Source: Selenomonadales bacterium
GTDB taxonomy: Bacteria > Bacillota > Negativicutes > Sporomusales > UBA7701
Direction: 5' to 3'
Assembly: GCA_029975165.1 (NCBI GenBank)
Contig: JARKPR010000024.1
Coordinates: forward strand, 62,001 to 126,000
Length of the DNA stretch: 64,000 nt
Both the position numbers and the translations under genes were made by a program. Below are positions 17,935 to 54,265 of this stretch, in pieces (positions within the stretch are counted from its first letter, which is position 1; every line of letters starts with the position of its first letter). The notes under the pieces were generated by a model, which was given only the letters and a program-made list of their open reading frames with translations, was not told the origin of the DNA and ran no database searches.

Positions 17935-17979
17935 ATTTTCACCTCTTTCCCATAAGTTGTCTCGTTTTAAGGTGCGAAG

Positions 17980-19509
<1,530 letters not shown>

Positions 19510-19558
19510 AAAGCACCTCCAAACAGATGTATTGCAAAAACCGGGCGCGATTTGCCGC

Positions 19559-19966: not shown

Positions 19967-19999
19967 TGTTCTGCCTCCTTACGGATTTTTATTTAGCCG

Positions 20000-20938: not shown

Positions 20939-20975
20939 GCCGCTGTCACCGCCCCGGGGCCGCGTGCCGCAGGCT

Positions 20976-21368: not shown

Positions 21369-21393
21369 CGTTCGTCCCTCCTAACGCTTCTCG

Positions 21394-23040
21394 CTACAGG
21401 CTTACGTGCGCTTCGTATTCGCCGAACACTTTGCGCATCACGCCGCAGATTTCGCCAAGGCTGGCGTATGTTTTGACGGCGTTCAAGATGAACGGCATGA
21501 GGTTCTGGTGCTCGTCGCCGCAGGCCGTCTCAAGGGCGGCCAGCTTGGCCTGGACGGCGGCGCCGTCCCGCTCGGCCTTGACTTTGGCGAGCTTGCTTTT
21601 CTGGAATTCGCCCACCGACGCGTCGACCCTGAGCAGGCCTTCGGCCGGTTTTTCCTTGATCTGGAACTGGTTGACGCCGACGATTACGCGTTGCTTGTTT
21701 TCGACTTCCATCTGCCAGCGGTAGGCGCTCTCTTGGATCTCTCTCTGGATGTAGCCTTTTTCGATCGCCGCCGGGGCGCCGCCCAGCTCGTCGATTTTTT
21801 TGATGTATTCCCAGCATTCCTTTTCGATCTTGTCGGTGAGGGCCTCGACGTAGTACGAGCCGCCCAGCGGATCGACGACGTCGGCCAGGCCGGATTCGTA
21901 GGCGACGATCTGCTGGGTCCTCAGGGCGATGCGCACCGAGTCTTCGGTCGGCAGGGCGAGGGCTTCGTCGCGCGAGTTGGTGTGGAGCGACTGGGTGCCG
22001 CCGAGTACGGCCGCCGCCGTCTGCAGGGCGACGCGGACGATGTTGTTGTCCGGCTGCTGGGCAGTGAGCATCGAGCCGGCGGTCTGGGTGTGGACGCGCA
22101 GCATCCAGCTCTTGGGGCTCTGGGCGCCGAAGCGCTCTTTCATGACTTTGGCCCAGACCCGCCGCGAGGCGCGGAATTTGGCGACTTCCTCGAGGACGTT
22201 GTTGTGGGCGTTCCAGAAGAACGACAGCCGGCCGGCGAAGTCGTCGACGTTGAGGCCGGCCTTGATGGCCGCGTCGACGTAGGCGATGCCGTCGGCGATG
22301 GTGAAGGCGATTTCCTGCGCGGCGGTGGAGCCGGCCTCGCGGATGTGGTAGCCGGAGATGGAGATGGTGTTCCATTGGGGCACGTTTTTCGAGCAGTATT
22401 CGAAGATGTTGGTGATGAGCCGCATCGAGGGCTTAGGGGGGAAGATATAAGTGCCGCGGGCGGCATATTCTTTAAGGATGTCGTTCTGGATAGTGCCGTT
22501 GAGCTTGTCGGCGCTGACGCCCTGTTTCTCGGCGACGGCTATGTACATGGCCAGCAGGACGGCGGCCGGGGCGTTAATGGTCATCGAGGTCGATACTTTG
22601 CCGAGGTCGATCTGGTCGAAGAGGATCTCCATGTCTTTGAGGGTGTCGATGGCGACGCCGACCTTGCCGATCTCGCCTTCGGCAATGGGGTCGTCGGAGT
22701 CGTAGCCGATCTGCGTGGGCAGGTCGAAGGCGCACGACAAGCCGGTCTGGCCCTGCTCCAGGAGGTAGCGGTACCGCTTGTTGGATTCTTCGGCGGTGGC
22801 GAAGCCGGCATATTGGCGCATCGTCCAGAAGCGCCCCCGGTACATGGTCGGCTGCACGCCGCGGGTGAAGGGATATTCGCCCGGGAAGCCCAGGTCGCGC
22901 TCGTAGTCGAAGGCTTCAAGGTCGAGCGGGGTGTATAGGCGGTTGGGCACGAGGTTCTGCCGTTCGGGGTTTTTGGCCGCGGCCTTTTCTACCTTGGCGG
23001 TGTAGGCGGCCATTTTGGCTTGCAAGGATTCGTTGGCCAT
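21394..23040 (-). CDS. Methylmalonyl-CoA mutase, catalytic (large) subunit
   Basis: TIM-barrel subunit of 548 residues that rearranges succinyl-CoA and methylmalonyl-CoA using adenosylcobalamin from its partner. The family blocks [65 protein letters not shown] and [19 protein letters not shown] are all present, and the chain stops where the B12 domain would begin in fused forms. ATG follows AAAGGAGGACAACAAA. It is the second gene of the operon, between the CoA-transferase and the B12 subunit. Confidence 0.96.
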
Positions 23041-23064
23041 TTTGTTGTCCTCCTTTGCTCTTGG

Positions 23065-24573: not shown

Positions 24574-24660
24574 CCCATTCTCCCTCCACTTCAAACTTAT
24601 TATGATGACAAGAACACATAAAAATACACCCGGCCCGTACCGCCCTAGGGGACGGAACAA

Positions 24661-39679: not shown

Positions 39680-40873
39680 CTAAATCAGCCCTTCCTGTTG
39701 CAGGGCGGCGATCTCCTCGTCCGTCAGCCCGAGCAGGTTCTTGTACACTTCGTTGTTGTGCTGGCCGAGGAGGGGGGCCGGCGTCCGCACGCAGGGCTTG
39801 GTTTCCGACAGCTTGAGATGGGTGCCGGCAATCTTTGTCCGCCCGGCTTTCGGGTGCTCGACCTCGACGAACATCTCCCGCGCGCCGGCGATGTGTGGGT
39901 CGCTGACCACCTGCTCGATGTTGTTTATCGGCGCGGCGGGCACGCCGGCGGCCAGCAGCAGGTCGACGATTTCCCCCGCCTTCTTGGTGACTGTCCAGGC
40001 CTCGACGATCGGTTTCACTTTGTCGTGCTTCTGGACGCGCTTCCAGTTGGTGTCGATCTCGGGATCGAAGGCGATTTCCGGTTTGCCCATGACCTCGCAC
40101 AGCTTCTGCCACAGTTTGTCGTTGCCGGCGCCGATGACCAGGCTGCCGTCGCTGGCCTTGAAGGAGTCGTAGGGATAGACCGACTCGTAGCGGTTGCCGA
40201 TGCGCTGCGGCAGGCGCTTTTCCACCAGGTAGATCTGGTTGATGATCTCCATGCTGGCCACCGCCGAGTCGACGAGGGAGATGTCGACCTTCTGGCCGGC
40301 GCCGTGGGCATCGCGATAGCGCAGCGCGGCCAGGATGCCGATCGTGACCGACAGCCCCGCCAGCACGTCGGCCATCGCCGTCCCCGTACGGGTCGGCTCG
40401 CCGCCCGGCCAGCCGGTGGTGCTCATCAGGCCGCTCATGGCCTGGCCGATGATGTCGTAGCCCGCCCGGTCCTTGTAGGGGCCGTAGTGGCCGAAGCCGG
40501 AAACGGCGGCGTAGACGATGCGGGGGTTGACTTTCTTGAGGTCCTCGTAACCCAGGCCGAGCTTTTCCATCGTGCCGGGGCGGTAATTTTCCACGACCAG
40601 GTCGGCCTTTTTGATCATTTCGAGGAAGATGGCCTTGCCGCGGCCCTTGAGGTTGAGGGTGATGCCCTTTTTGTTGCGGTTGAGGTTCATGTAGTAGGAA
40701 CTTTCGCCGTTGACGAAGGGGCCGAAAGCCCGGCTGTCGTCCCCTGTTTTAGGGACCTCGATCTTGATGACTTCCGCGCCCATATCGGCCAGCATCATGG
40801 TGCAGAAAGGACCGGCTAGTACCCGCGTCAGGTCAAGTACCCTAACTCCGTCCAAAGCTCCAACGTAATTCAT
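39680..40873 (-). CDS. Class III CoA-transferase (CaiB/BaiF family)
   Basis: Family III CoA-transferase of 397 residues. Typical blocks: GVRVLDLTRVLAGPFCTMMLADMGAEVIKIE (read in parts), YYMNLNRNKKGITLNLKG, VVENYRPGTMEKLGLGYEDL, the active-site region YAAVSGFGHYGPYKDRAGYDII and PFKASDGSLVI-like DSFKASDGSLVIGAGND. ATG follows TAGGAGGAACCTGCC. It likely makes the CoA ester of a hydroxy dicarboxylate for the lyase 19 bases downstream. In the Chloroflexus 3-hydroxypropionate cycle, citramalate CoA-transferase belongs to this family. Confidence 0.9.
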   Translation of the reverse strand: MNYVGALDGVRVLDLTRVLAGPFCTMMLADMGAEVIKIEVPKTGDDSRAFGPFVNGESSYYMNLNRNKKGITLNLKGRGKAIFLEMIKKADLVVENYRPGTMEKLGLGYEDLKKVNPRIVYAAVSGFGHYGPYKDRAGYDIIGQAMSGLMSTTGWPGGEPTRTGTAMADVLAGLSVTIGILAALRYRDAHGAGQKVDISLVDSAVASMEIINQIYLVEKRLPQRIGNRYESVYPYDSFKASDGSLVIGAGNDKLWQKLCEVMGKPEIAFDPEIDTNWKRVQKHDKVKPIVEAWTVTKKAGEIVDLLLAAGVPAAPINNIEQVVSDPHIAGAREMFVEVEHPKAGRTKIAGTHLKLSETKPCVRTPAPLLGQHNNEVYKNLLGLTDEEIAALQQEGLI

Positions 40874-40885: not shown

Positions 40886-41374
40886 CTAGACAGTTTTTTT
40901 CAGATACGGGACAAGCCCGCCTTCGCCGATAAGCGCCAATATGTGCGGCGGTATCTTGCTGCAGGCATATTGTTCATTTTTAGTCTTGTTCACGATGACG
41001 CCCTGTGCGAGGTCGATCTCGATCAGGTCGCCGTCGCTGATCTTGTCCGTGTCGGCGCATTCGATCACCGGGATGCCCAGATTGATGGCGTTGCGGTAGA
41101 AAATCCGCGCGAAGAATTTGGCGACGATCGCCCCGACGCCTAGGTGCTTCAGGGTCAGCGGCGAGGTCTCGCGGCTTGATCCCGAGCCAAAATTGACCCC
41201 CGCCACCAGGATATCGCCTTGGCGCACCTTGGCCGCGAAGTCGGGGTCGATGGCGCTCATCGCGTATTTGGCCGCCTCGGGGATGCTAAGCTCCATGTAC
41301 TGGGGAGGGGAAATGATGTCGGTGTTGATGTTGTCGCCGTATTTCAGGACTTTGCCGGCCACTATGCCGTTCAT
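40886..41374 (-). CDS. Aconitase-family hydratase small subunit (LeuD/DmdB-like)
   Basis: Swivel-domain subunit of 162 residues. GKVLKYGDNINTDIISPPQYM, GVNFGSGSSRETSPLTLKHLG (the substrate-binding loop) and GIPVIECADTDKISDGD match the short archaeal/anaerobe-type LeuD group, which includes isopropylmalate, citramalate and 2,3-dimethylmalate dehydratases. ATG 41374 overlaps the large-subunit stop by 4 bp. No leucine-synthesis genes (leuA, leuB) are near, so a catabolic role is more likely. Confidence 0.9.
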   Translation of the reverse strand: MNGIVAGKVLKYGDNINTDIISPPQYMELSIPEAAKYAMSAIDPDFAAKVRQGDILVAGVNFGSGSSRETSPLTLKHLGVGAIVAKFFARIFYRNAINLGIPVIECADTDKISDGDLIEIDLAQGVIVNKTKNEQYACSKIPPHILALIGEGGLVPYLKKTV

Positions 41375-42648
41375 GCGCCCACCTCCCGGACAAACTCGCG
41401 CGGGTCGGTTATCTTGCCGGTGATGGCGCTCGCTGCGACCGTCAGCGGCGACCCGAGGTAGATTTTGGCATTCTTGCTGCCCATGCGGCCGATGAAGTTG
41501 CGGTTGGTGGCCGAGATGCACACCTCGCCGTCGGCCAGCAGGCCGGAATGCAGCCCCACGCACACCCCGCACGTCGGCGCGAGGATGACGGCGCCGGCCG
41601 CGGCCAGCGTAGCCAGCAGGCCGCTGGCGCTGGCCCGCTGCCAGATGTCCTGGGAGGCGGGCGAAACGAGCAGGCGTACGCCCTTTTTCACTTTGCGGCC
41701 TTTGAGGACGGCGGCGGCGGCTTCGAGGTCGCTGTAACGCCCGCCGGTGCATGAACCGATGTAGGCCTGGTGGACCGCGGTGCCCTTTACGTCCCCGACC
41801 GGGGCGACGTTGTCGACCTCGTGCGGGCAGGCGACGACCGGTCCCAGTGCGTCGGCCCGGAAGTCGTGGGTCGCGCAGTAGCTGGCGTCGGCGTCGCTGA
41901 CGATCAGCTCGTAGCCGCCGGTGATGCCCCGCGCCGCCAGGAATTCGACCGCCTTGGCGTCGGGCGCCATCAGCCCGGCCTTGGCCCCCATCTCGACCGC
42001 CATGTTGGTTATCGCCAGGCGCTCGTCGATGCTGAGCGCCTCAATGGTGTCGCCGACGTATTCGACCGTTTTGTAGGTGGCGCCGGCGTGGCCGATGATG
42101 CCGATCGTTTTCAGGGACATGTCTTTCGCCATGACGCCCGGCGGCAGTTTGCCCCGCCAGGTCACCTTGATCGTTTCCGGGACCCTCAGCCACGTTTTGC
42201 CGGTCACGAGAATCCCCAGCATCTCGGTGGAGCCCACCCCGCTGGCGAACGCGCCGAGCGCGCCGCCCATGCAGGTGTGCGAATCCGTGCCGAGCACGAC
42301 GGTTCCAGGCCTTACGTGGCCGTACTCGGCCATGATCTGGTGGCAGGGGCCGACGAACTCGTGGTAGTTCTCTATCCCGTGGGCCGCGGCCCAGTCGCGG
42401 GTGAACTTGACGATCTCGGCCTGCTTGATGCTGGCGGGAGGGGTGTAATGGTCGGAAATAACGACGACCTTGTCCTTATCCCAAACCTCGTCCTTGATCT
42501 CTAGCATCTTTGCCGCTATTTCCACCCGCGGCCCGAGGATATCGTCCATCATGGCCCGGTCGACATTTACCCAGAGAATATCCCCGGCCGACGCCCCGCT
42601 TACGCCGGCGGCCCTGGCGAGAATCTTCTCCGACATTGTTTTGCCCAT
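41371..42648 (-). CDS. Aconitase-family hydratase large subunit (LeuC/DmdA-like)
   Basis: Iron-sulfur subunit of 425 residues. Substrate and cluster motifs: VISDHYTPPASIKQAE, GTVVLGTDSHTCMGGALGAF, and the [4Fe-4S] ligands in SDHT/GSCTGG (IGSCTGGRYSDLEAA) and APTCGVCVGLHSG. The start ATG 42648 follows GGAGGGGGCTTT. Homologues hydrate or dehydrate isopropylmalate, homocitrate, citramalate/citraconate or dimethylmalate/dimethylmaleate. Operon context, with a PrpF-like isomerase, CoA-transferase and lyase, suggests hydration of a citraconate-like acid. Confidence 0.9.
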   Translation of the reverse strand: MGKTMSEKILARAAGVSGASAGDILWVNVDRAMMDDILGPRVEIAAKMLEIKDEVWDKDKVVVISDHYTPPASIKQAEIVKFTRDWAAAHGIENYHEFVGPCHQIMAEYGHVRPGTVVLGTDSHTCMGGALGAFASGVGSTEMLGILVTGKTWLRVPETIKVTWRGKLPPGVMAKDMSLKTIGIIGHAGATYKTVEYVGDTIEALSIDERLAITNMAVEMGAKAGLMAPDAKAVEFLAARGITGGYELIVSDADASYCATHDFRADALGPVVACPHEVDNVAPVGDVKGTAVHQAYIGSCTGGRYSDLEAAAAVLKGRKVKKGVRLLVSPASQDIWQRASASGLLATLAAAGAVILAPTCGVCVGLHSGLLADGEVCISATNRNFIGRMGSKNAKIYLGSPLTVAASAITGKITDPREFVREVGA

Positions 42649-42718: not shown

Positions 42719-43939
42719 TTAGTTGTCCCAGTATCCCCTGACCGCCGCGTCGACGCACTGTTTGTCGCTGCCGTACCAGGTCATGAGGTTGTTGCCGCCC
42801 GGGGCGTAGAACGCCATCTTGGGGGAGCTGGTGGCGAGCGTTTTGAAGCCGAGCGCTTCCGGGATGCTGAGCACCGTGCAGAGATCCTGCGTGAGAACGG
42901 CGCCGGCGTCCTCGATGATCTTGCGGTAGCCGAGCTGGGTTGCCAGACCTTTGATGGCGACATTGGTATGAATCCAGAAGGTGACGTCCTTGTGGACCTT
43001 TTTGCCCCGGAGCAGCATGGCGACGTCCCTGATCTGCCGCAGCGTAAAATGCGGGCAGCCGATGGCGACGTAGTCGACCTTGGGGTCGGCCGCGGACGTG
43101 AGCTGGCGCTTGCCGGCGGCGATCTCCTTGTCGGTGATCAGCACCGTATCGTACTTCTTGCCGCCGAAAGCTGCCGCGACGGTCGGCGCCTCGGGGGTCA
43201 CGCCGACGGCGTGGAACATGGCCACGCTGCCGGAGGACGCCAGGGCGGCGCCGAGGTACACCAGGTCTTCGATACAGGGATTGAGGATGCCGTCGAACAC
43301 GGGGACTTTCGTGCCCACGATCTTGCCGACATAGGCGCCCAGCGCGCCGTAATCGGCGGTATCCTCAAGCTTGGCCGTCACCTTGAACAGGATGTCGCCG
43401 CGGCGGTTCTCGTCGAGATGGAAGCCGTACAGCGGCGTGCGGCCGATCAGGCCGGCGGCCAGGGCGCTGGGGCCGCCCTCGCGGTTGTCGCGCGCGCCGA
43501 GCACCGAGTTGGTGAAGACGACGGCCGACGATTCCGACCAGGCGATGCTTTCGCCGAACCGGGGCAGGACGCCGGTGTAGTAAGGGACACAGGACGAGGT
43601 GCCGAAACAGCCCATACACTCGTAAGCGTCCTCGATTCTCATCTGGTTGTGGCACCAGTCTTTCGGCAGCCCGAGGTCGCGGCTGCGGTCGACACCGATG
43701 ACGTTCATGGTCGTGGGCACGCACACCCTGGCTCCGGCCTTCGCCATATCCTCGGCCCAGTCCGCGCCGGCGAGCCCGTGGCTTTTGAGCGACAGGCCGG
43801 CGACATGGGCGCTGTTGATGGGAACGGTTTTTTCCGCGCCGTAGATCTCACCGAGGGTGGCGAGCATCTCCATGGCCTTCTGCATCGGTTCGCCGCGTTC
43901 GCCGTCAAGGATCCTCTTTTCCTCGTCGGTCAGCTTCAT
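42719..43939 (-). CDS. Aconitase X catalytic (large) subunit
   Basis: AcnX family protein (formerly DUF521), 406 residues. Starts MKLTDEEKRILDGERGEP, the family hallmark, and contains MGCFGTSSCVPYY, FTNSVLGARDNREGGPSALA, ADPKVDYVAIGCPHFTL and the C-terminal FYAPGGNNLMTWYGSDKQC. Characterised members dehydrate mevalonate 5-phosphate (archaea) or cis-3-hydroxy-L-proline (bacteria). Here the enzyme is two-subunit: its ATG overlaps the stop of the small-subunit gene by 4 bp. In this operon a hydroxy-carboxylic acid is the likely substrate. Confidence 0.92.
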   Translation of the reverse strand: MKLTDEEKRILDGERGEPMQKAMEMLATLGEIYGAEKTVPINSAHVAGLSLKSHGLAGADWAEDMAKAGARVCVPTTMNVIGVDRSRDLGLPKDWCHNQMRIEDAYECMGCFGTSSCVPYYTGVLPRFGESIAWSESSAVVFTNSVLGARDNREGGPSALAAGLIGRTPLYGFHLDENRRGDILFKVTAKLEDTADYGALGAYVGKIVGTKVPVFDGILNPCIEDLVYLGAALASSGSVAMFHAVGVTPEAPTVAAAFGGKKYDTVLITDKEIAAGKRQLTSAADPKVDYVAIGCPHFTLRQIRDVAMLLRGKKVHKDVTFWIHTNVAIKGLATQLGYRKIIEDAGAVLTQDLCTVLSIPEALGFKTLATSSPKMAFYAPGGNNLMTWYGSDKQCVDAAVRGYWDN

Positions 43940-44358
43940 TTATTTTCACCTCTTTTGAAAACTTCGACGATCCCCTTGGTGGCGTCGACCTTCACGAAGT
44001 CGCCGTCGGCGATCACCGCGTAGGGGTCCTGGTCGAGCTTGTCGACGACCGGGATGCCGCCCATGATGGCGCCGACGGCGATGATCGTTTCCGTCAGCAC
44101 GTTGATGATGGCGGCCGGGGCCGTTTTGCTCTTGGCGAGCTGGTACACGACGTAGGAACCGCCGGTGCTGCCTTTGCCGTTGGGGAAGACGAGGATTTTG
44201 TCCTTGATGGACTTGTTCATCAGTTCGTGGTTGTGCTCGATCACCGTGCCTGTTTCGACGTCCATGCCGAAATTGAAGCCGATCGGCTCATGGCAGAGCA
44301 GCGCTTCGCCCTCGGCATAGCCTTTGCTGATCGGCCGGCCCTTAAGAATTATTGACAT
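43936..44358 (-). CDS. Aconitase X swivel (small) subunit, DUF126
   Basis: Swivel-domain partner of aconitase X, 140 residues. LKGRPISKGYAEGEALLCHEP, ILVFPNGKGSTGGSYVVYQLA and ADGDFVKVDATKGIVEV are the conserved DUF126 blocks; the PxGKGST loop contributes to the active site in characterised AcnX. ATG follows GGAGGTGTGAAAGG. It is fused to the large subunit in many proteobacterial AcnX proteins but separate here. Confidence 0.92.
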   Translation of the reverse strand: MSIILKGRPISKGYAEGEALLCHEPIGFNFGMDVETGTVIEHNHELMNKSIKDKILVFPNGKGSTGGSYVVYQLAKSKTAPAAIINVLTETIIAVGAIMGGIPVVDKLDQDPYAVIADGDFVKVDATKGIVEVFKRGENK

Positions 44359-44403
44359 CCTTTCACACCTCCGTTGTTTGGTACCGAACTTCGTTTTTGC
44401 CGG

Positions 44404-45807
44404 CTAATACAGGCCGAGCACTTTCCAGTACGCCATGCCGGCCGTCAGGTAAATTACGGCGGCGACGACCATGACGATCGTCCCGACCTTCCACCAGGTG
44501 GCCTGGTCGACGTAGCCGGGGCCGAAAAGCACGGGCGCGACCGCGTTGCCGTAGTGGGTGAGCAGGCAGCCGAATTCCGACATCGCGCCCATGAGGAAGA
44601 TGAGCGGCCAGACGGGAACGTTCGCGACCAGGCCGAGGGTGAACAGCACCGGGATGAAGGTGGAGCAGTACGGGGCAAGCGAGGCGAAGAAGTAGCGGAC
44701 AGGGATGCTGATCACCAGCAGGCCGACGAGGATGATATACGCGTCGTAGCCGGTGAAGTTGAGGTTTTTGGCCATGACATCGGTCAGCCACTTGAAGAAG
44801 CCGGCCTTGGCCAGGCCGTCGGCAAGGCTGATGATGCCGCCGTACCAGATGAGGGTATTCCAGGCGCCTTTGGCATTCACCAGGCTCTCCCATTTGACGA
44901 CGCCCGTCACCAGGCAGGCGCCGACGAAGCCGATGGCGACGGCGGTGGCGTCGATTTTGGTGATGGTGCCGGTGGCCCAGCCGATGATCGAAAGCACGAA
45001 CAGGAGGGCCAGCGTTTTTTCCCGCCGGGTCGTCAGGCCGATTTCCGCCAGGCCGTTGGCCGCTATCTCCTTGTTGTTGATGGTTTTGATTTCCGGCGGA
45101 TACAGCTTGTAGACAATGTAGGGGACGAGTAGCAGGATGAGCAGGGACGGCGGGAAGATCGCCATCGCCCACTGCGTCCAGGAAACATCCTGCTTGAGGA
45201 TGCTCTTGGCGAAGGTGGTGACCAGCAGGTTGGTCGCCGAGGCGGTGAGGAACATCGACGCGGTCGTGATGCTGATCTGGTAGAGGAGCAACGTCAGGTA
45301 GCCGCCGATCCGCCGCGAGGTCGGCCCCGGCTCGGAGTCGAGCGTGACGGCGATGCTGCGGAAGATCGGGTAGACCAGGCCGCCCGTGCGGGCGGTGTTC
45401 GACGGCGTCGCCGGGCTGATGATCATGTCGGTGAACGCGGCCACATAGCCGAGGCCAAGGGTCGTCCGGCCGAGCTTGCCGATAAGGATGTAGGCGATTC
45501 TTCTTCCCAGTCCGGTTTCGACGAACGCCTGGCCGAGCATGAAGGCCGAGAATACCAGCCAAGCCGTCGTCGAGGCGTAGCCGGCCAGCACGATGCTGGT
45601 ATTTTTGAAACAGATGCTCGATACGGCCACCGCCACGATCAATACCACCGGTTCGGGGGCGGGACGGAGCATTAGGCCGATGATGGCGCCGAGGTAGACG
45701 GCGAACAGCTGCCAGGCCTTGACCGGCAGGCCGGCGGGCACGGGCATCAGCAGCAGAATAACCGGGACTAAAACCGTAACAGCTACTTTCCAGTATTTTA
45801 CCTGCAT
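44404..45807 (-). CDS. DASS-family (SLC13-type) di/tricarboxylate transporter
   Basis: Anion symporter or antiporter of 467 residues with about 12 hydrophobic helices, of the divalent anion:Na+ symporter family (CitT, YflS, plant 2-oxoglutarate/malate translocator). Motif SPATPSNTARTGG is the family substrate loop (usually SNTA), and the second repeat has EFGCLLTHYGNAVAPVLFG. ATG follows GAGGAGAAATTTTC. It lies inside the catabolic operon between prpF-like and acnX genes, so it probably imports the operon's carboxylate or exports a product by exchange. Confidence 0.9.
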   Translation of the reverse strand: MQVKYWKVAVTVLVPVILLLMPVPAGLPVKAWQLFAVYLGAIIGLMLRPAPEPVVLIVAVAVSSICFKNTSIVLAGYASTTAWLVFSAFMLGQAFVETGLGRRIAYILIGKLGRTTLGLGYVAAFTDMIISPATPSNTARTGGLVYPIFRSIAVTLDSEPGPTSRRIGGYLTLLLYQISITTASMFLTASATNLLVTTFAKSILKQDVSWTQWAMAIFPPSLLILLLVPYIVYKLYPPEIKTINNKEIAANGLAEIGLTTRREKTLALLFVLSIIGWATGTITKIDATAVAIGFVGACLVTGVVKWESLVNAKGAWNTLIWYGGIISLADGLAKAGFFKWLTDVMAKNLNFTGYDAYIILVGLLVISIPVRYFFASLAPYCSTFIPVLFTLGLVANVPVWPLIFLMGAMSEFGCLLTHYGNAVAPVLFGPGYVDQATWWKVGTIVMVVAAVIYLTAGMAYWKVLGLY

Positions 45808-45878: not shown

Positions 45879-47033
45879 CTAGAACACGGACTTCTTCACG
45901 TAGACGTAGCCGTCCATGATCCGCCGCGCCGTGCGGTAGACGCCGAGGCGCTTGGTCTTGACCTGGCCGGCGACAAGCTCGGCTTCGGCTTCCACGGGGA
46001 TGACGCCACCCGGATGGCCGATGTTGACCGTCAGGCGCGTCCTGGCTTCCTCGCGCAGCACCTCCCAGGCGACGCTGCCCGGTACGCGGACGGCGGCGCC
46101 GGTGCAGACCGTGCCTGTGCCGGGATAGGTCTTGTGCATCTTGAGCATGAACAGCAGCCGGGAGACGAGGTCAACTTCTTCGGCTTTGACGGTCGTGCCG
46201 CTGATCGTTTTGTACTCGGCCGGCGGGCTGACGATGGCGAAGAAGGGGATGTAGGGGCTCTTGGCGGCGGCGTCTTCCGGCTTGTCGACCAGACCGAAGA
46301 TGACGGCCGCCTGGCCGCGGATCTTTTCGATGGTGGCCATCAGCGGCTTGTTGGCTTCGATCTCGCTCGGCGATTCGGTGCCTTTCATGCCGAGGCTCTG
46401 GGCGTTGATGAATACCAGGGGATTGCCGGCGTCGACCAGCGACACGGTGTATTTGACGCCTTCGACTTCGATGACGTCCTTGGCGTTGCCGGTGGGCAGC
46501 AGCTTGCCGCAGCACGAGCCGGCGGTGTCCGACCAGTCGAGGGTGATCTTGGCGCCCGTGCCGGGGCAGCCGTCGATGGCGAAGTCGCCGTCCACCCTGG
46601 CTTTGCCGTTTTTGACCGGCACTTCGGCGATGAGGATGTTGTTGCTGTTGGTCAGGTGGATGCGGACGGTGGTGACCGGCTCGACCGGCTCGACCAGTCC
46701 TTCGTCGATGGCAAACGGGCCGACGGCGGAGGAAATGTTGCCGCAGTTGCCGCCGTAGTCCACGAACTCGGTTTCGAAGCTGACCTGGCCGAAGGTGTAG
46801 TCGACGTCGGCGTCTTCACGGGTGGGAGGAGAGATGATTGCCAGCTTGCTGGTGAGGACGTCGGCGCCGCCCAGGCCGTCGATCTGGCGGACGTCGGGGC
46901 TGCCGTAAATGGCCAGGATGACGGCGTCGCGTTTCGCGGGGTCCTTGGGCAGCTCGTTCTTCATGATGAATACGCCTTTGCTGGTGCCGCCGCGCACGAT
47001 GGCGCACCGCAGCATTTCCATTTCCGGATGCAT
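45879..47033 (-). CDS. PrpF-family double-bond isomerase
   Basis: Diaminopimelate-epimerase-fold isomerase (PrpF, PF04303), 384 residues. MLRCAIVRGGTSKGVFI at the start (K18-containing RGGTSKG) and YGGNCGNISSAVGPFAIDEGLV carry the active-site residues; GGADVLTSKLAIISPPT and TYPGTGTVCTGAAVRVPGSV are also conserved. Known members shift a C=C bond: 2-methylaconitate isomerase, 3-methylitaconate isomerase of Eubacterium barkeri, oxalomesaconate tautomerase. ATG follows AAAGGAGGGTTTCT. It would supply the unsaturated acid for the LeuCD-like hydratase. Confidence 0.9.
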   Translation of the reverse strand: MHPEMEMLRCAIVRGGTSKGVFIMKNELPKDPAKRDAVILAIYGSPDVRQIDGLGGADVLTSKLAIISPPTREDADVDYTFGQVSFETEFVDYGGNCGNISSAVGPFAIDEGLVEPVEPVTTVRIHLTNSNNILIAEVPVKNGKARVDGDFAIDGCPGTGAKITLDWSDTAGSCCGKLLPTGNAKDVIEVEGVKYTVSLVDAGNPLVFINAQSLGMKGTESPSEIEANKPLMATIEKIRGQAAVIFGLVDKPEDAAAKSPYIPFFAIVSPPAEYKTISGTTVKAEEVDLVSRLLFMLKMHKTYPGTGTVCTGAAVRVPGSVAWEVLREEARTRLTVNIGHPGGVIPVEAEAELVAGQVKTKRLGVYRTARRIMDGYVYVKKSVF

Positions 47034-47078: not shown

Positions 47079-48080
47079 CTACTGCTTCATGGCCTGGGCG
47101 ACCGCGACCGACAGCGATACCGTGGCCCCGACCATCGGGTTGTTGCCCATCCCGACATAGCCCATCATTTCGACGTGGGCCGGGACGGAGGACGAGCCGG
47201 CGAACTGCGCGTCGCAGTGCATGCGGCCGACGGTGTCGGTCAGGCCGTAGGACGCCGGGCCGGCGCCGTTGTCGTCGGGGTGGACGGTGCGGCCGGTGCC
47301 GCCGCCCGAGGCTACGGAGAAATATGCTTTGCCGTTGTCCCAGCACCACTTTTTGTACGTGCCGGCGACCGGATGCTGGAAGCGGCTCATGTTGGTCGAG
47401 TTGCCGGTGATGGAGACGTCGACGCCCTCGCGGATCATGATGGCGACGCCTTCCTGGACGTCGTCGGCGCCGTAGCAGCGCACCGCCGCCCGCGGCCCTT
47501 TGGAGAAGGATTTTTCTTCGGCAACGGCCAGTTCGCCCGTATGGTAGTCGTAGGTAGTGCGCACGTAGGTGAAGCCGTTGATGCGGGAGATGATGTAGGC
47601 GGCGTCCTTGCCCAGGCCGTTGAGGATGACCTGCAGCGGCTGTTTCCTGACCTTGTTAGCCGAATTGACGATGCCGATGGCGCCTTCGGCCGCGGCGAAC
47701 GATTCATGGCCGGCCAGCAGGGCGAAGCACCTGGTGTTTTCGTTCAGCAGCCGGCCGGCCAGCCGGCCGTGGCCGAGGCCGACCTGGCGGTGGACGGCGA
47801 CCGAGCCGGGGATACAGAACGCCTGCAGCCCTTCGCCAATGGCTTCGGCAATTGCCGACGCATCGGCAAGCCCTTTCTTCATGGCGACCGCGCCCCCGAG
47901 GATATAGGCCCAGCAGGCGTCGTCAAAGCAGATGGACTGAACGCCGCGGACGATGGCGAATACGTCTACACCGCGGCCCTCCAGCAGGGCGCGGGCCTCT
48001 TCGAGCGACTGCAGCCCGTTGGCTTTGAGGCATTTGTCGATGCTGTCGCGGCGGCGGTCGATTCCTTCAAATGTCACCAT
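47079..48080 (-). CDS. GGGtGRT protein (function unknown)
   Basis: Protein of 333 residues belonging to the family named for its motif: GGGTGRT is present at residues 259-265. Other conserved stretches are SICFDDACWAYILGGAVAMK, GHGRLAGRLLNENTRCFALLAGHESFA and the C-terminal GYVGMGNNPMVGATVSLSVA. No biochemical role is established as far as I know. It starts 15 bases after the NifU-like gene stop, a pairing I recall as common in anaerobes. The Gly-rich loop might bind a nucleotide or cofactor; this is only a guess. Confidence 0.85.
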   Translation of the reverse strand: MVTFEGIDRRRDSIDKCLKANGLQSLEEARALLEGRGVDVFAIVRGVQSICFDDACWAYILGGAVAMKKGLADASAIAEAIGEGLQAFCIPGSVAVHRQVGLGHGRLAGRLLNENTRCFALLAGHESFAAAEGAIGIVNSANKVRKQPLQVILNGLGKDAAYIISRINGFTYVRTTYDYHTGELAVAEEKSFSKGPRAAVRCYGADDVQEGVAIMIREGVDVSITGNSTNMSRFQHPVAGTYKKWCWDNGKAYFSVASGGGTGRTVHPDDNGAGPASYGLTDTVGRMHCDAQFAGSSSVPAHVEMMGYVGMGNNPMVGATVSLSVAVAQAMKQ

Positions 48081-48095
48081 ATTCTATCCCCTCCC

Positions 48096-48785
48096 CTATT
48101 CCCGGCGCGGGTCGATTTGTTTTACGGCCTCGGCGAAGCGCCCGTACGTCCCCTTGGCTTTTGCGAAAGCATCGTTGGGACTCATGCCTTTGGCGATGTA
48201 TTCCATCATTTTGCCGAGGTGGACGAATTCGTAGCCGATGACCTCGCCGTTCTCGTCCAGCCCCATGCGGACGATGTGGCCTTCGGTCGTTTCGAGATAC
48301 CGCGGCCCCCTGGCCAGCGTCCCGTACGATGTCCCCACCTGGCTGCGCACGCCGGCCCCCAGGTCTTCCCATGCGGCGCCGATCGGCAGCCCGCCGTCGG
48401 AGAACGAGGTCTGCGTACGGCCGTAGACGATCTGCAGGAAGAGCGCTTTCATGGCGCTGTTGGTCGCGTCGCACACCAGGTCGGTGTTCAGGGCTTCCAT
48501 GATGGTTTTGCCGGGCAGGATCTCCGCCGCCATGGCCGCCGAATGGGTCATGCCGGAACAGCCGATATGCTCGATCAGGGCCTCCTGGATGATGCCGTCT
48601 TTGACGTTCAGCGTCAGTTTGCACGTCCCCATTTGCGGCGCGCATGTCCCGCAGCCGTGGGCGAAGCCGGCTATATCCTTGACATCCCTGGCCCGGACCC
48701 ACTTGCCCTCTTCCGGGATCGGCGCCGCGCCGTGATTCGGCCCCTTAGTCACTGTGCACGATTTTTCCAGCTCACCTGTCAGCAT
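48096..48785 (-). CDS. NifU-like iron-sulfur cluster scaffold protein
   Basis: IscU/NifU N-terminal-like protein, 229 residues from ATG 48785; the open frame reaching 49004 runs back through the sigma-54 promoter and is not coding there. Cysteines at C45, C48, C55 (HGCGTCAPQMGTC), C76 (HIGCSG) and C105 (LVCDA) are candidate ligands. C76 in GCS and C105 match the scaffold-type spacing, and the N-terminal CxxC is an addition. It is the first gene of the operon, followed by the GGGtGRT gene. It may deliver clusters to the LeuC-like and AcnX dehydratases. Confidence 0.85.
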   Translation of the reverse strand: MLTGELEKSCTVTKGPNHGAAPIPEEGKWVRARDVKDIAGFAHGCGTCAPQMGTCKLTLNVKDGIIQEALIEHIGCSGMTHSAAMAAEILPGKTIMEALNTDLVCDATNSAMKALFLQIVYGRTQTSFSDGGLPIGAAWEDLGAGVRSQVGTSYGTLARGPRYLETTEGHIVRMGLDENGEVIGYEFVHLGKMMEYIAKGMSPNDAFAKAKGTYGRFAEAVKQIDPRRE

Positions 48786-48900: not shown

Positions 48901-48916
48901 AGCAAAAAGCATGCCA
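48901..48916 (-). promoter_or_regulatory. Sigma-54 promoter of the catabolic operon
   Basis: On the minus strand TGGCATG-CTTT-TTGCT, a near-perfect match to the -24/-12 consensus TGGCACG-N4-TTGCW with both invariant GG and GC present at correct spacing. It lies 116 bases before the NifU-like start and downstream of a gene for a sigma-54 activator. The predicted transcription start is near 48890. Confidence 0.85.
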
Positions 48917-49059: not shown

Positions 49060-50979
49060 TTAGTTGCCGGGCACCTTGCGCCAGACCGTGGCCCGGCCGA
49101 TCTTGAGTATTTTTGCCACCTGATTGCGGTCGTTGCCGTGAACCGCCAGGAGAAAATTGATTATGCTATTTTCCACCTCGTGGACGGCGTATTTCAACCC
49201 CTTATCCCAGCGCACGCGGACGGAAAGGGCCGCCTCCTTGCCCTCGGCCGTTCCCGGCATGACTTTTTGCAGCATCGCCGGCATGCCGCCGCCGGCCGGC
49301 GAACTGCGCATCAGCAGCGACAGCCGCTCCATGACGTTATACAGTTCGCGGACGTTCCCCGGCCAGTCGCCGGCCGCCAGCAGCGGCTGCAGTTCCTTGG
49401 CGGCGCTTTTTTCGTCCACCCGGACGTTGAACCGCCGCAGGAAATTTACCGCCAACAGGAAAATGTCCTCCTTGCGCTCCCGCAGCGGCGGAATCTCCAG
49501 GTTGAATACGCTCAGCCGGTAGAATAGGTCGTCGCGGAAGTCCCCTTGCTCCACTTTCTGGGCCAGATTTTTATTCGTGGCGCTGATGATGCGGATATCC
49601 ACGGGCACGATCCTGTCGCCGCCGACCCGCATGATCTCCTTTTCCTGCAGCACCCTCAGCAGTCTGGCCTGGAGGGACTTGGGAAGCTCGCCGATCTCGT
49701 CGAGGAAGATCGTACCCTTGTGCGCCAGCTCGAAAAGCCCCGGCTTGCCCTTTTTCCTGGCGCCGGTGAACGCTCCGCCTTCGTAGCCGAACAGTTCGCT
49801 TTCCAGCAGGTGTTCGGGGATGGCCGCGCAGTTGATGGCCACGAACGGCCCTTTGCTGCGCTTGGAGGCGTTATGGATGCTCTGGGCGAACAGTTCCTTG
49901 CCTGTGCCCGATTCGCCCTGGATGGTCACGGCCGAATCGGTGGTCGCATACAGCGCCGCCAGGCGCTTCAACTGTTCCATGCGGGGATTGGCGGTCAGGA
50001 TGTCTTGGAACCGGTGCCTGGCGACGAAGCCTTTGTCGTGAATCTGCTTGCGGATTATCTGTTCCATGTGCTGGATTTTGGTCACGTCTTCGAAGGTGCT
50101 GACGACGCCGATCTGTTTCCCGTCCAGCATTATCGGGATGCGGCTCGTGGCGATCGTCCCGCCGTGAACCTGCTGCAACACGGCGATTTCGGCCTCGCCG
50201 GTATTGAAAACGACATGCATCCGCGTATTGGGGATGACGTCCTGGACCTTGCGGCCGATCACCTCGGCGGCAGGTCTGCGGAAGATCCGTTCCGCCGCCG
50301 GGTTGTAGATGGTAACCTCGTTCTGCTCATCGGTGACGATGATCCCCTCGGTGATGGAATCGAGCACGATCTTGAACCTGGCCGCCCGGCTGCGCTCGGT
50401 CTGCCGCACCCGGGCGAGGTGGATGGCCTGGTCGAGCGACCGGTAAACCGCTTCCTCGCCGCATTCGATGAGCACGCCTTCCAGGCCGCATTCGACCGCC
50501 AGGCGGACCGCTACCATGCCGCCGATGACGACGGTTACGCCTTTCTTTTTGGCCGCGATGATTCCCTTGCGGATCTCCGCTTCGGACGCGAACGTGTATT
50601 CAAGGAGCTTTACGGCGAACATCTTCTCGATGTCGCGGATGCCGTACATGTTTTCCTTGTAGTTGAAAAAGCCGATCCTGCCGGCCCTGTCCTTGATCGA
50701 ACTGACCGCCCGCGCCGCGTCGAACGGCGTGATCGGCACGGAAACGACCGGGACGCCCACCGCCGCCTTGATATAGTCGGCCGTGCCGCCGCGGCTCAAA
50801 ATCACGTCGGTATTCGGCTCGATCTTTTTGGCTATTCCCGCCGCCTCTCCCAGCGTGGCGATGGCGACATAGGGCCGCAATCCCTCCTGCTTCGCCAGCC
50901 GGGCAAAGACGGTGGCCATATCGGGGTAAGGCGATATCAGCGCCAGTTTTATTTCCTCGTTCTGCCGCAAGGCCTGCAC
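49060..50979 (-). CDS. Sigma-54-dependent activator with PrpR N-terminal sensor and PAS domain
   Basis: Enhancer-binding protein of 639 residues. Domains in order: PrpR_N sensor (about 10-190, SRGGTADYIKAAVGVPVVSV), PAS (about 200-305, VLDSITEGIIVTDEQNEV), AAA+ ATPase (about 325-560) and a Fis-type HTH (NDRNQVAKILKIGRATVWRK). Walker A is GESGTGKE (355-362), the sigma-54 contact loop GAFTGA (402-407), Walker B IFLDEIGE. GTG start behind AAGGAGGTCACGGTT. PrpR_N senses 2-methylcitrate in the founding member, so a branched carboxylate is a likely signal here. The sigma-54 promoter and ten-gene operon follow directly. Confidence 0.95.
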   Translation of the reverse strand: MQALRQNEEIKLALISPYPDMATVFARLAKQEGLRPYVAIATLGEAAGIAKKIEPNTDVILSRGGTADYIKAAVGVPVVSVPITPFDAARAVSSIKDRAGRIGFFNYKENMYGIRDIEKMFAVKLLEYTFASEAEIRKGIIAAKKKGVTVVIGGMVAVRLAVECGLEGVLIECGEEAVYRSLDQAIHLARVRQTERSRAARFKIVLDSITEGIIVTDEQNEVTIYNPAAERIFRRPAAEVIGRKVQDVIPNTRMHVVFNTGEAEIAVLQQVHGGTIATSRIPIMLDGKQIGVVSTFEDVTKIQHMEQIIRKQIHDKGFVARHRFQDILTANPRMEQLKRLAALYATTDSAVTIQGESGTGKELFAQSIHNASKRSKGPFVAINCAAIPEHLLESELFGYEGGAFTGARKKGKPGLFELAHKGTIFLDEIGELPKSLQARLLRVLQEKEIMRVGGDRIVPVDIRIISATNKNLAQKVEQGDFRDDLFYRLSVFNLEIPPLRERKEDIFLLAVNFLRRFNVRVDEKSAAKELQPLLAAGDWPGNVRELYNVMERLSLLMRSSPAGGGMPAMLQKVMPGTAEGKEAALSVRVRWDKGLKYAVHEVENSIINFLLAVHGNDRNQVAKILKIGRATVWRKVPGN

Positions 50980-51181: not shown

Positions 51182-52687
51182 CTATATGTCGATGTCCGAG
51201 GCCAGCATGTCCTTTTTCTTCATGATGCCGGCGATGATGCTGGCGACGAGGATGAGAATCGCCAGAATGAGCAGCGGGGCGGTCAGGGGGTTGGTGAAGA
51301 ACCGCCAGAAGTTCCCCTGATACATGACCAGGGCCTGCGACAGCGACGATTCCATCAGGCCGCCGAGGATGAAGGTCAGCACGACGGGCGCCAGCGGGAT
51401 GTCGAGTTTTTTCAGCAGGTAGCCGAGGAGTCCGAAGCCCAGCATTACCCCGATGTCGAAGACGCTGTTTTTGATGCTGTACGCGCCAAGAACGGCGATG
51501 GCGAGGATGATCGGGAAGAGCAGCTTCGGGGGGACTTGCGTCAGCTTGGCCCATAAACCGGCCATCGGCAGGTTCATGACCAGAAGGATGGCGTTGCCGA
51601 TAAACATGCTGGCGATGACGCCCCAGACGAACTCGGGGTTTTTCTGGAACAGCTGCGGACCGGGCTGAAGGCCGTGCATGATGAAGGCGCCCAGCAGGAT
51701 GGCGATCGTCGGCGAACTGGGAATGCCCAGGGTGAAAAGCGGGATGAGCGCCCCGCCGCAGTAGGAGTTGTTGGCGGTTTCCGGCCCGGCGACCCCTTCG
51801 ATGGCCCCTTTGCCGAAGCGCGACGGGTCTTTGGCCATCTTTTTCTCCAGCGAGTAGGACATGAGCGTGGGGATGACCGAGTTCGTGCCCGGGATCAACC
51901 CGATAAAAAATCCGATAACCGTTCCCCGGCTGATCGCCTTGAGGGACGGGAGCCACTCTTCTTTTCGCGGCAACAGGCCTTTGAGCACGGGCATCTTGTC
52001 CGAGCTGATCAGCGATTCGGCGGTGAGCATGATCTCCGAAATGCCGAGCAGGCCCATGGCGATGGGCACGAAGTCGAAACCGTCCTGCAGCTCGGGGATG
52101 CCGAACGAGAAGCGGAACGTCCCTGTCACCGGGTCGGTGCCGACCATGGCCAGCGCCAGGCCGATGAGGGCGGCAATCATCCCCCGCACCAGGGATTTGC
52201 CCATCAGGCCGATGACCATCGTCATACCGAGCACCAGCAGGGCGAAATATTCCGGCGGGCCGAACTTCAGCGCCAGCCTGGCTATCGGCGGGCCGATGAA
52301 GGCCAGGCCGATGATGGATATCGTCCCGCCGATAAACGAGCCGATGCCCGCGATGCCGAGCGCCGTGCCGGCCCGCCCCTGCTGGGCCATCGGATAGCCG
52401 TCCATGCAGGTGATGACCGAAGCGGCTTCGCCCGGGGTGTTGATAAGCACCGAGGTGATGGTCCCGCCATACATGGCGCCGTAATAGATGCCGGCGAGCA
52501 TTATGATGGCGGCGATAGGTTCCATTCCGTAAGTCAGCGGCAGCAATACGGCTGTGCCCGTGCTGGGGCCCAGTCCCGGCAGGACGCCGATCAGCATCCC
52601 GAAGGTGACCCCAATCAGGCAATATAGCAGGTTCTGCCAGGAAAACGCTATTTCAAAGCCCATACCCAGTTGGCCGAGCAATTCCAT
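51182..52687 (-). CDS. tctA: Tripartite tricarboxylate transporter, large permease TctA
   Basis: Large membrane subunit (TctA, PF01970), 501 residues, about 11-12 helices. Signature segments: LIGVLPGLGPSTGTAVLLPLTYGMEP, GGTITSVLINTPGEAASVITCMDGYPMA (read in two parts) and the second repeat IPGTNSVIPTLMSYSLEKKMA. With TctB and a TctC-type binding protein it forms a secondary importer driven by an ion gradient, used for citrate and many other carboxylates. It is the last gene before the terminator at 51137. Confidence 0.95.
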   Translation of the reverse strand: MELLGQLGMGFEIAFSWQNLLYCLIGVTFGMLIGVLPGLGPSTGTAVLLPLTYGMEPIAAIIMLAGIYYGAMYGGTITSVLINTPGEAASVITCMDGYPMAQQGRAGTALGIAGIGSFIGGTISIIGLAFIGPPIARLALKFGPPEYFALLVLGMTMVIGLMGKSLVRGMIAALIGLALAMVGTDPVTGTFRFSFGIPELQDGFDFVPIAMGLLGISEIMLTAESLISSDKMPVLKGLLPRKEEWLPSLKAISRGTVIGFFIGLIPGTNSVIPTLMSYSLEKKMAKDPSRFGKGAIEGVAGPETANNSYCGGALIPLFTLGIPSSPTIAILLGAFIMHGLQPGPQLFQKNPEFVWGVIASMFIGNAILLVMNLPMAGLWAKLTQVPPKLLFPIILAIAVLGAYSIKNSVFDIGVMLGFGLLGYLLKKLDIPLAPVVLTFILGGLMESSLSQALVMYQGNFWRFFTNPLTAPLLILAILILVASIIAGIMKKKDMLASDIDI

Positions 52688-52708: not shown

Positions 52709-53155
52709 TCAAAAAAATGCGCCCTGCGGCAGCGGAATTTTCAGGAAAACCTGGAATACGAAGTACAGGCAGAGCGCGGTGACGACCGAAAGGCCGATTG
52801 CCCAGTGCCACTTGTACTCGCGCAAAAACAGCATCAGCAGCATGATCGTGCCGGCGACGATGTAACCGGTATAGTCGACGATCAGGATCAATATGCTGAT
52901 GGACGCGATGACGGTCAGCATATAGGAGAACTCCCGGCCGCGGGGAAATACCGCCGCAAGAGAGTACCCTTTTTGCTTGACCGACTCCAGGATATACAGG
53001 ACGGAACAGATCGCCAGGCCGCCGCTGATCCACAGGGGGAACAACCCGGCTCCCGGCCCGTATTTCCCGTAGTAGCCGTAGCCCAGCGAGGTTTTAAACA
53101 TCAGGCCCGCACAAACAAGAAGAATTATTCCCGTCCAAACACCGGAATTTTTCAC
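52709..53155 (-). CDS. tctB: Tripartite tricarboxylate transporter, small permease TctB
   Basis: Small membrane subunit (TctB), with four hydrophobic helices (GIILLVCAGLMFKTSLG, LFPLWISGGLAICSVLYI, SYMLTVIASISILILIV, IGLSVVTALCLYFVFQVF). The GTG at 53155 is chosen because the protein then begins VKNSGVWTGIILL as relatives do and GGGGGTGGG lies upstream; the open frame extends to an ATG at 53191 that has no ribosome site, so the start is uncertain. Length 148. It lies 21 bases before tctA. Confidence 0.82.
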   Translation of the reverse strand: MKNSGVWTGIILLVCAGLMFKTSLGYGYYGKYGPGAGLFPLWISGGLAICSVLYILESVKQKGYSLAAVFPRGREFSYMLTVIASISILILIVDYTGYIVAGTIMLLMLFLREYKWHWAIGLSVVTALCLYFVFQVFLKIPLPQGAFF

Positions 53156-53260
53156 GAACACCCACCCCCGCGTCGCTGACGATTGTACCATGGGCCGGAA
53201 AAGGAAAACATGCAGACCGAACGAAGCGTCCGGTCTGCATACTGCGTCCAGGCGGCCGCT

Positions 53261-54265
53261 TTACCAACCAAGCAGGTCTTTGATATCGACGATGCCTTGT
53301 TCTTCACGTTTCAGGGATTTATACAAGCCTTCCGGATTCTGATAATCGAGCTGCAGACCCATCTCGTCCATCTTCTTCCTATGCTCCGGGTTCTTGGTCG
53401 CCTTTTCGATCGCGGCGGTCAATACGGCGATGATCGCCGGGTCGGTGCCCTTGGGGGCGGCGAAGCCGCGGGCGGACCAGGACACGACGCCGTCAAAGCC
53501 CAGTTCTTTCAGGGTCGGGATGTCGTTCAGCAGCGGCGAGCGCTTGTCGTCCATGACGGCGAGGACTTTGACCTCTTTGTTCTTGTGGAGCGTCGTCACG
53601 TCGCCGACATTGGCCACCATCACGTCGACATGGCCGCCGAGGACGGCGGTGATGGTCTCGTTCGCGCCCCGATTGTGGACGGCTTCGAATTTGGTGCCGT
53701 ATTTCTTGTTGAATTTCAGGGCGGCGATGTGGTCGTCGCCGGTGATGCCGGTGGAGGTCGTCGTGACCACATGGGTCTTGGCGTATTCGATCAGCTCTTT
53801 CATGTTGGTGAACCGCGTTTCATCCTTGCGGATCGCGATGGCTCCCGGGTCGGTGACATGGTTGGCGATCAGCGCGAAGCTGTCGATGCTTTCCTTGCGG
53901 TTGCTTTTGGGATCCATGTAGCCGGTGATCAGGTTCGGCGTGTTGATCAGGGAGATCGTGTAGCCGTCCGGTTTGGACTTGAGCAGTTCAGCCCAGCCGA
54001 CCCAGCCGCCGGCCCCCGGTTTGTTGATCACGTTGATGGGGACGCCGAGATCCTTCTCCACGACGGCCATCAGCGCCCGTGTCCCGAGGTCCGAGCTGCC
54101 GCCGGCGCCGTAGTTGACGAACACCGTGATCGCCCTTGTCGGGTATTTCTCCTTCGGCTTTTCCTTGGCGGCGGGCGAGTCGGCCTTGCCGCAGGCGGCA
54201 AGACTGGCCGCCAGAGCCACCATGAGCGATACGAGCAGGAACCTACCGAGCATTTTTCTCATCAT
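53261..54265 (-). CDS. tctC: Tripartite tricarboxylate transporter substrate-binding protein (TctC/Bug)
   Basis: Solute-binding protein of 334 residues (Bug family, PF03401). A lipoprotein signal ends LAASLAAC. The mature part has YPTRAITVFVNYGAGGSSDLG (PAG loop equivalent), VINKPGAGGWVGW, and HKNKEVKVLAVMDDKRSPLLNDIPTLKELG, all standard. It captures a carboxylate outside the inner membrane and hands it to TctAB. The ligand is unknown, but neighbours point to the acid degraded by the surrounding operons. Confidence 0.93.
   Translation of the reverse strand: MMRKMLGRFLLVSLMVALAASLAACGKADSPAAKEKPKEKYPTRAITVFVNYGAGGSSDLGTRALMAVVEKDLGVPINVINKPGAGGWVGWAELLKSKPDGYTISLINTPNLITGYMDPKSNRKESIDSFALIANHVTDPGAIAIRKDETRFTNMKELIEYAKTHVVTTTSTGITGDDHIAALKFNKKYGTKFEAVHNRGANETITAVLGGHVDVMVANVGDVTTLHKNKEVKVLAVMDDKRSPLLNDIPTLKELGFDGVVSWSARGFAAPKGTDPAIIAVLTAAIEKATKNPEHRKKMDEMGLQLDYQNPEGLYKSLKREEQGIVDIKDLLGW

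Follow-up and report, generated by a model that had tools for sequence, protein, structure and literature searches.

Which substrate is handled by the two-subunit aconitase X (AcnX) encoded beside a DASS-family carrier on contig JARKPR010000024.1 of an anaerobic Selenomonadales bacterium? We analysed a 64-kb stretch of this contig (the window; all coordinates are positions in it), for which an original prediction had proposed a carboxylate substrate new to the AcnX family. The gene pair adjoining the carrier is borne out with exact coordinates (PF04412, PF01989, PF00939, TIGR00785). The large subunit gives a full-length match to the Pfam AcnX family PF04412 (464 bits, cut-off 31.5) and matches its counterpart in T. 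kodakarensis AcnX (TkAcnX) with 307 bits. The small subunit carries the AcnX swivel domain PF01989 (103 bits, above cut-off) and also matches the TkAcnX small subunit and AF0055; there is a 4-bp overlap between the AcnX genes. The conserved catalytic set is present (C117, C295, C354, E136, S137, K374 and Y378, with the GKGST loop in the small subunit). We conclude that the pair encodes a type-II aconitase X, divided into a large and a small subunit and predicted to be an iron-sulfur (Fe-S) hydro-lyase. It is the single AcnX in the 4.19-Mb assembly, where a weak second PF04412 match is the neighbouring LeuC. With a probability of about 0.6, we read the locus as an inducible operon for the breakdown of a branched hydroxy-di- or tricarboxylate that the cell imports, with AcnX as its dehydratase; this general scheme names no substrate.

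Using sequence similarity, which is high enough for that purpose, we mapped the window protein onto the solved AcnX enzymes and compared the 14 active-site columns described for TkAcnX. TkAcnX and ApAcnX represent the archaeal phosphomevalonate dehydratase, AcnX type IIb (PDB 7CNR, 7CNS; PMC8184944). At these columns the window protein reads A47 G48 L49 S50 S53 N79 C117 E136 S137 S138 C295 C354 K374 Y378, TkAcnX reads A G V S N N C E S S C C K Y, and AtAcnX, the cis-3-hydroxyproline enzyme (PDB 7CNP, 7CNQ), reads D G C I S N C E S N S C K Y. The window protein is thus identical to TkAcnX at 12 of 14 columns, the changes being V49L and N53S. Since the columns match in this way, the putative cluster ligands C117, C295 and C354 are probably cysteines of the [3Fe-4S]/[4Fe-4S] type. 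Two subunits, three cysteines, Glu-Ser-Ser, Lys, Tyr, the small-subunit Ser-Thr and most of the anion loop are common to the window and archaeal enzymes. Among the phosphomevalonate-binding residues, A47, G48, S50 and N79 are kept, whereas positions 49 and 53 differ and, in the small subunit, Leu is replaced by Asn and Val by Gly. Relative to TkAcnX, the window enzyme also has a 7-residue insertion after position 86 and a C-terminal extension.

This resemblance, including the phosphate-contacting G48-x-S50 and N79, favours a phosphorylated AcnX substrate, either the phosphomevalonate on which the archaeal enzyme acts or a near analogue of it, and Ser53 is also shared with Thermoplasmata AcnX. 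We nevertheless regard such a substrate as improbable. The window protein lies in a separate clade, its small subunit has Asn-Phe where that of TkAcnX has Leu-Gly, and it is surrounded by carboxylate transporters and a catabolic-type regulator, with no kinase or UbiD-type decarboxylase among the open reading frames and Pfam matches of the cluster. The host does not appear to have a mevalonate pathway: in the assembly, which is 96% complete so that absences are not absolute, 3-hydroxy-3-methylglutaryl-CoA (HMG-CoA) reductase has no match, and IspH of the methylerythritol phosphate (MEP) route is present, in agreement with the original statement that mevalonate genes are missing.

A role on cis-3-hydroxyproline is far less credible still. 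The window protein belongs to the same family as AtAcnX, shares its core catalytic residues, and has the cis-3-hydroxyproline dehydratase model as its top NCBIfam match, but at 279 bits against a cut-off of 700. The hydroxyproline-specific residues of AtAcnX, Trp35, Thr72, Asp203 and Ile206 (PMC8184944), are all replaced in the window protein, by Asn, Gly, Ala and Ser. Its third cluster cysteine is at the TkAcnX position (C295), it falls outside the AtAcnX clade, and no hydroxyproline genes surround it. The proline racemase noted as missing among the neighbours has no match above cut-off in the genome, and the sub-threshold match is the window PrpF gene. Imine reductase genes had likewise been noted as missing; one gene of the OCD/mu-crystallin family, which includes pyrroline-2-carboxylate reductases, is present on another contig. 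The active-site comparison proposed in the original prediction sets 12 matching TkAcnX columns beside four lost AtAcnX residues.

In a maximum-likelihood tree of 56 AcnX rows, the window protein and its closest relative, L003, form their own clade (support 100/99) outside those of both characterised enzymes; the tree leaves the placement of this clade relative to the other bacterial clades without resolution. TkAcnX lies in an archaeal clade of 12 rows that includes one Chloroflexota row (99/96), and the AtAcnX clade has support of 99/97. The small-subunit motif FNF is found in the window and L003 only (FLG in TkAcnX, FWG in AtAcnX), and STGG replaces STVG while the catalytic Ser-Thr of the GKGST loop is retained. 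We infer that recognition of the carboxylate and hydroxyl is kept, that the far-end anion pocket is partly kept, and that a polar residue alters the pocket. Such a pocket would fit a substrate bearing an extra carboxylate but does not prove one. It is already stated in the literature that several bacterial type-II subclasses have no assigned substrate: types IIc-IIf have the landmark residues of neither characterised function and are still to be characterised (PMC8184944). A carboxylate new to the family is still the best inference, given the position outside both clades, the loss of the hydroxyproline residues and the carboxylate-catabolic operon. The claim that the neighbours fit neither known function was too strong on one point, in view of the largely conserved phosphomevalonate anion loop.

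The AcnX genes are part of a cluster that runs on the minus strand from 54265 down to 38755, in the order TctC, TctB, TctA, sigma-54 activator, NifU-like, GGGtGRT, PrpF, DASS, AcnX small, AcnX large, LeuC, LeuD, family III CoA-transferase and HMG-CoA-lyase-type lyase (Table 1). From GGGtGRT downstream, adjacent genes overlap or lie no more than ~70 bp apart. The DASS carrier, PrpF and LeuCD had been listed as neighbours and are present; the CoA-transferase, lyase, regulator, TctABC and GGGtGRT/NifU-like pair had been overlooked, and these are what constrains the chemistry.

The window PrpF-family protein is nearer to 3-methylitaconate isomerase (Mii; 3G7K, 416 bits) than to PrpF (2PVZ, 265 bits) or oxalomesaconate isomerase (228 bits); its GGNCGN motif is intact, and isomerase activity is predicted. 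LeuCD is closest to the isopropylmalate/citramalate isomerase of M. jannaschii. Its LeuD subunit has QYMEL and SSRET, as against YLNT or YAM and SSREH or SSREQ in biosynthetic LeuD and in DmdB-like proteins of nicotinate-fermentation-like clusters, and the QYMEL/SSRET variant is absent from all those compared. The small subunit therefore does not carry the DmdAB motifs, as judged against clusters with mutase-like and dimethylmalate-lyase-like genes that were picked by eye. A role in leucine biosynthesis was rejected because the motifs differ and the genome has six other LeuC-like genes, from which the window LeuC is distinct. The nearest solved relative of the CoA-transferase, whose MADVLAG motif is intact, is succinate-hydroxymethylglutarate CoA-transferase. 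The lyase is closest to HMG-CoA lyase, scores 300 bits with NF004283 (cut-off 246) and has intact catalytic motifs (LHLHDTRG, GLGGCPFAPGA); it conforms to the subfamily model and catalytic loop, and its substrate, HMG-CoA versus a malyl-type CoA ester, is a predicted one. With both enzymes nearest to HMG enzymes, 3-hydroxy-3-methylglutarate was considered as the CoA-activated acid and tentatively set aside as less likely, because the known substrates of LeuCD are vicinal (maleate-type) dicarboxylates.

Table 1 Features of the AcnX cluster, with positions in the 64-kb window and the basis of each assignment
Feature	Position	Strand	Basis
HMG-CoA-lyase-type lyase, HxH and GLGGCP loop	38755-39672	-	PF00682; NF004283 above cut-off
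Family III CoA-transferase	39680-40873	-	PF02515, 438 bits
LeuD-type small subunit, QYMEL and SSRET motifs	40886-41374	-	Profile matches, motif comparison
LeuC-type large subunit, hydratase/isomerase	41371-42648	-	PF00330
AcnX large subunit (domains 1-3)	42719-43939	-	406 aa; PF04412, TkAcnX match, column comparison
AcnX small subunit (swivel domain 4)	43936-44358	-	140 aa; PF01989, TkAcnX small subunit/AF0055 match
DASS-family anion symporter	44404-45807	-	PF00939, 467 bits; TIGR00785 above cut-off
PrpF-family isomerase	45879-47033	-	Nearest solved relative 3-methylitaconate isomerase 3G7K
GGGtGRT protein	47079-48080	-	PF14057, 586 bits
NifU-like protein, paired with GGGtGRT	48096-48785	-	Weak, sub-cut-off NifU matches
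Sigma-54 -24/-12-like site TGGCATGCTTTTTGCT	48901-48916	-	1 mismatch; ~115 bp upstream of NifU-like gene
Sigma-54-dependent activator, PrpR_N sensor domain and PAS	49060-50979	-	PF00158, PF06506
TctA-like transporter membrane component	51182-52687	-	Sequence resemblance; adjoins Pfam-confirmed TctC
TctB-like small membrane component	52709-53191	-	Open reading frame; inferred from position and size
TctC-type solute-binding protein	53261-54265	-	PF03401, 149 bits

In the scheme that we propose, the substrate would enter through TctABC and/or the DASS carrier. The AcnX heterodimer, with its three-cysteine [4Fe-4S]-type site, would dehydrate a beta-hydroxy carboxylate with a second anionic group to a branched unsaturated dicarboxylate, the PrpF protein (methylitaconate-isomerase type) would shift or isomerise the double bond, and LeuCD would rehydrate the product to a 2-methylmalate-type acid. 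The family III CoA-transferase would then activate this acid, and the HMG-CoA-lyase-type enzyme would cleave the CoA ester to pyruvate and an acyl-CoA. As the acid we tentatively favour 2,3-dimethylmalate, with propionyl-CoA as the acyl-CoA, at roughly one chance in three; citramalate, giving acetyl-CoA, is a conceivable but rather unlikely version. At slightly under even odds, the AcnX clade would be a third functional class, a branched hydroxy-dicarboxylate dehydratase that feeds a methylitaconate/citraconate-type isomerase and a hydratase in an undescribed CoA-dependent route to pyruvate and propionyl-CoA (or acetyl-CoA). If so, AcnX would gain a polycarboxylate activity that reconnects it with the aconitase/isopropylmalate chemistry found in its superfamily, and the route would offer a CoA-dependent alternative to dimethylmalate/methylisocitrate-type lyases, keeping a thioester that dimethylmalate lyase would not give. 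The downstream enzymes would restrict the AcnX product to a branched unsaturated dicarboxylate, leaving a short list of substrates.

Some known pathways come close to this scheme. The tail of nicotinate fermentation consists of methylitaconate isomerase, dimethylmaleate hydratase DmdAB and dimethylmalate lyase. The window operon likewise combines a PrpF nearest to methylitaconate isomerase with a LeuCD-type hydratase, but its LeuCD is of the QYMEL/SSRET subfamily and a CoA-transferase and HMG-lyase-type enzyme stand in for the lyase. Nicotinate fermentation itself was rejected, as no mutase or hydroxymethylglutarate genes are present in the operon. Bacterial itaconate/citramalate degradation proceeds through Ict-Ich-Ccl (PMC9875883, PMC12290011). 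Its logic is the same, with CoA activation first and then the splitting of a citramalyl-type CoA ester into pyruvate and acetyl-CoA, whereas in the window the lyase is of the HMG-CoA lyase and not the CitE type, hydration would precede CoA activation, and AcnX and PrpF are added.

Several points weigh against our scheme. The window AcnX keeps most of the loop with which the phosphomevalonate enzyme binds the anion (A47-G-L-S50, N79), a point in favour of a phosphorylated substrate. The Glu in the YMEL loop of LeuD is unaccounted for by the proposed route. We know of no member of the HMG-lyase family that acts on dimethylmalyl-CoA or citramalyl-CoA, and the literature on dimethylmalyl-CoA and on citramalyl-CoA lyases of this type yielded nothing useful. 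The operon has no precursor-forming gene, and no natural source of the precursor was identified. The gene identities, catalytic motifs, separate AcnX clade and repeated gene module are observed, whereas all substrates, the succession of steps and the way in which the AcnX reaction runs are deduced. Finally, the searches yielded no more than two such AcnX clusters, and one of them comes from a metagenome-assembled genome (MAG).

That second cluster is L003, on a MAG contig labelled Gallicola sp., whose AcnX is the closest in a scan of 84,980 genomes (~66-67% identity in the large subunit). Its genes are arranged in the order PrpR-like, CoA-transferase (60%), HMG-CoA-lyase-type (48%), LeuC (67%), LeuD (63%), metallo-beta-lactamase-fold, PrpF (66%), AcnX small (61%) and AcnX large, followed by a TAXI-type TRAP binding protein and permease, NifU-like (61%) and GGGtGRT (63%). 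Both clusters thus contain the two AcnX subunits, PrpF, LeuC, LeuD, CoA-transferase, lyase, NifU-like, GGGtGRT and PrpR-like genes, while L003 differs in gene order and has the TRAP transporter instead of DASS/Tct. That these enzymes stay together although their order and the transporter differ argues for a single pathway. No AcnX closer than L003 was found in the window's class (380 genomes), its phylum (398) or the relatives of L003 (61); the operon was not found in the window's own genus, order, class or phylum or among the L003 relatives, and none of ~40 other bacterial AcnX loci examined has the core gene set. The AcnX of a Cupriavidus plasmid is 48% identical and has a different context. 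The metallo-beta-lactamase-fold gene of L003 (6665-7354, between LeuD and PrpF) is lactonase-like, a hint that the substrate may enter in lactone form.

LeuCD modules also occur without AcnX; several family names in these comparison loci were assigned by eye. A Peribacillus plasmid (L229) combines LeuCD with a CoA-transferase and HMG-type lyase, and its LeuD reads QYMSQ. In L207 and L227, LeuCD relatives are accompanied by PrpF, an HMG-type lyase, SucCD-like ligase subunits, TctABC and two MmgE/PrpD-like genes, and in L208 and L228 by PrpF, TctABC, two MmgE/PrpD-like genes and a lyase of the isocitrate lyase (ICL) superfamily. An ICL-superfamily lyase directly adjoins the LeuCD relatives in L251 and L252; that of L252 is closest to petal death protein, 2,3-dimethylmalate lyase and methylisocitrate lyase, and is below cut-off with the PrpB model. 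Thus, CoA activation with an HMG-type lyase appears to alternate with dimethylmalate/methylisocitrate-type lyases across these loci.

The paired MmgE/PrpD-type genes of L207/L227 and L208/L228 occupy the place of AcnX. The known precedent for such a swap is the replacement of PrpD by AcnD and PrpF in Shewanella (PMC5690661). Like the window genes, that system pairs an Fe-S dehydratase with a PrpF-family isomerase, and a PrpR-type regulator stands beside the window genes; unlike it, the window has AcnX and not AcnD, and its operon lacks both methylcitrate synthase and methylisocitrate lyase. Together with the PrpR_N domain of the regulator and the linked lyases of the sister clusters, which score best, though below cut-off, with the PrpB model, the swap speaks for a CoA-dependent breakdown of 2-methylcitrate. 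AcnX would dehydrate 2-methylcitrate as AcnD does, PrpF would isomerise methylaconitate, LeuCD would form 2-methylisocitrate, and the CoA-transferase and lyase would yield pyruvate and succinyl-CoA. We consider this distinctly unlikely, since the PrpF-family protein of the window resembles methylitaconate isomerase far more closely than it does PrpF, the window LeuD has YMEL where the homoaconitase small subunit has YLRT, so that the Arg that likely binds the third carboxylate is missing, and the cluster has no citrate-synthase-type gene.

The relatives of the LeuCD-lyase module that lack AcnX (L207, L208, L229, L249, L252), like the presence of two transport systems (DASS and TctABC), would also suit an arrangement in which AcnX and the LeuCD branch handle two different substrates within a shared regulon, AcnX perhaps being a hydratase or catalysing a side reaction. 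The single strand, the short gaps and the recurrence of the same set in L003, rearranged and with another transporter, make this a similarly doubtful account. Two further observations concern these modules. The L229 cluster (443-18015) also holds LLM flavin oxidoreductase/flavin-monooxygenase, riboflavin kinase, flavin reductase and lactonase-family genes, and could serve degradation of the riboflavin or lumichrome ring via dimethylmaleate. A Yersinia ruckeri plasmid (L230, 5557-8093) has an incomplete LeuC followed by a QYMEL-type LeuD and PrpF, flanked by transposase fragments.

The inducible operon that we favour has a candidate promoter. The sigma-54-like site lies between the activator and the NifU-like gene, whose start ATG was set at 48785, downstream of a Shine-Dalgarno-like stretch. 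It is the sole site with at most one mismatch in the 64 kb; at up to two mismatches the count is not above chance, and the argument for the site is therefore its position and not the count. In L003, a site with one mismatch lies in the intergenic gap that precedes the AcnX small subunit, and one with two mismatches follows directly after the PrpR-like gene. The NifU-like/GGGtGRT pair is kept in both AcnX clusters (47079-48785 in the window, 14065-15765 in L003). Published data on this pair, or on GGGtGRT alone, go no further than changes with iron supply (PMC10434189, PMC5395762). We speculate that the pair may supply Fe-S clusters to AcnX and LeuCD. A GGGtGRT gene is also found beside PrpF and LeuC in L217.

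Elsewhere in the window, a propionate/succinate cluster (16008-24660) encodes methylmalonyl-CoA mutase with a separate B12-binding subunit, an epimerase-like protein, MeaB, a carboxyltransferase, an OadB-type sodium pump and a CoA-transferase. It could process propionyl-CoA and succinyl-CoA and slightly favours the dimethylmalate version, the link being proximity.

Other AcnX clades have different neighbours. One (L145, L149, L151, L026, L063), with AL--SN and FY-SSVQ motifs, is beside histidine-utilisation-like genes, identified by eye as urocanase-, imidazolonepropionase-, formiminoglutamate-deiminase- and HutD-like; we know of no AcnX function in histidine breakdown. A second clade (L004, L130, L131, L133, L134 and L231, the last from a Cupriavidus necator C39 plasmid) has RraA/HMG-aldolase-like neighbours and, at several loci, UbiD-like decarboxylase and dihydropyrimidine-dehydrogenase-like genes, all assigned by eye. 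A third clade (L154, L156 and L160) adjoins MttB-like methyltransferases and, in part, corrinoid proteins, which suggests a methylated (betaine-like) substrate.

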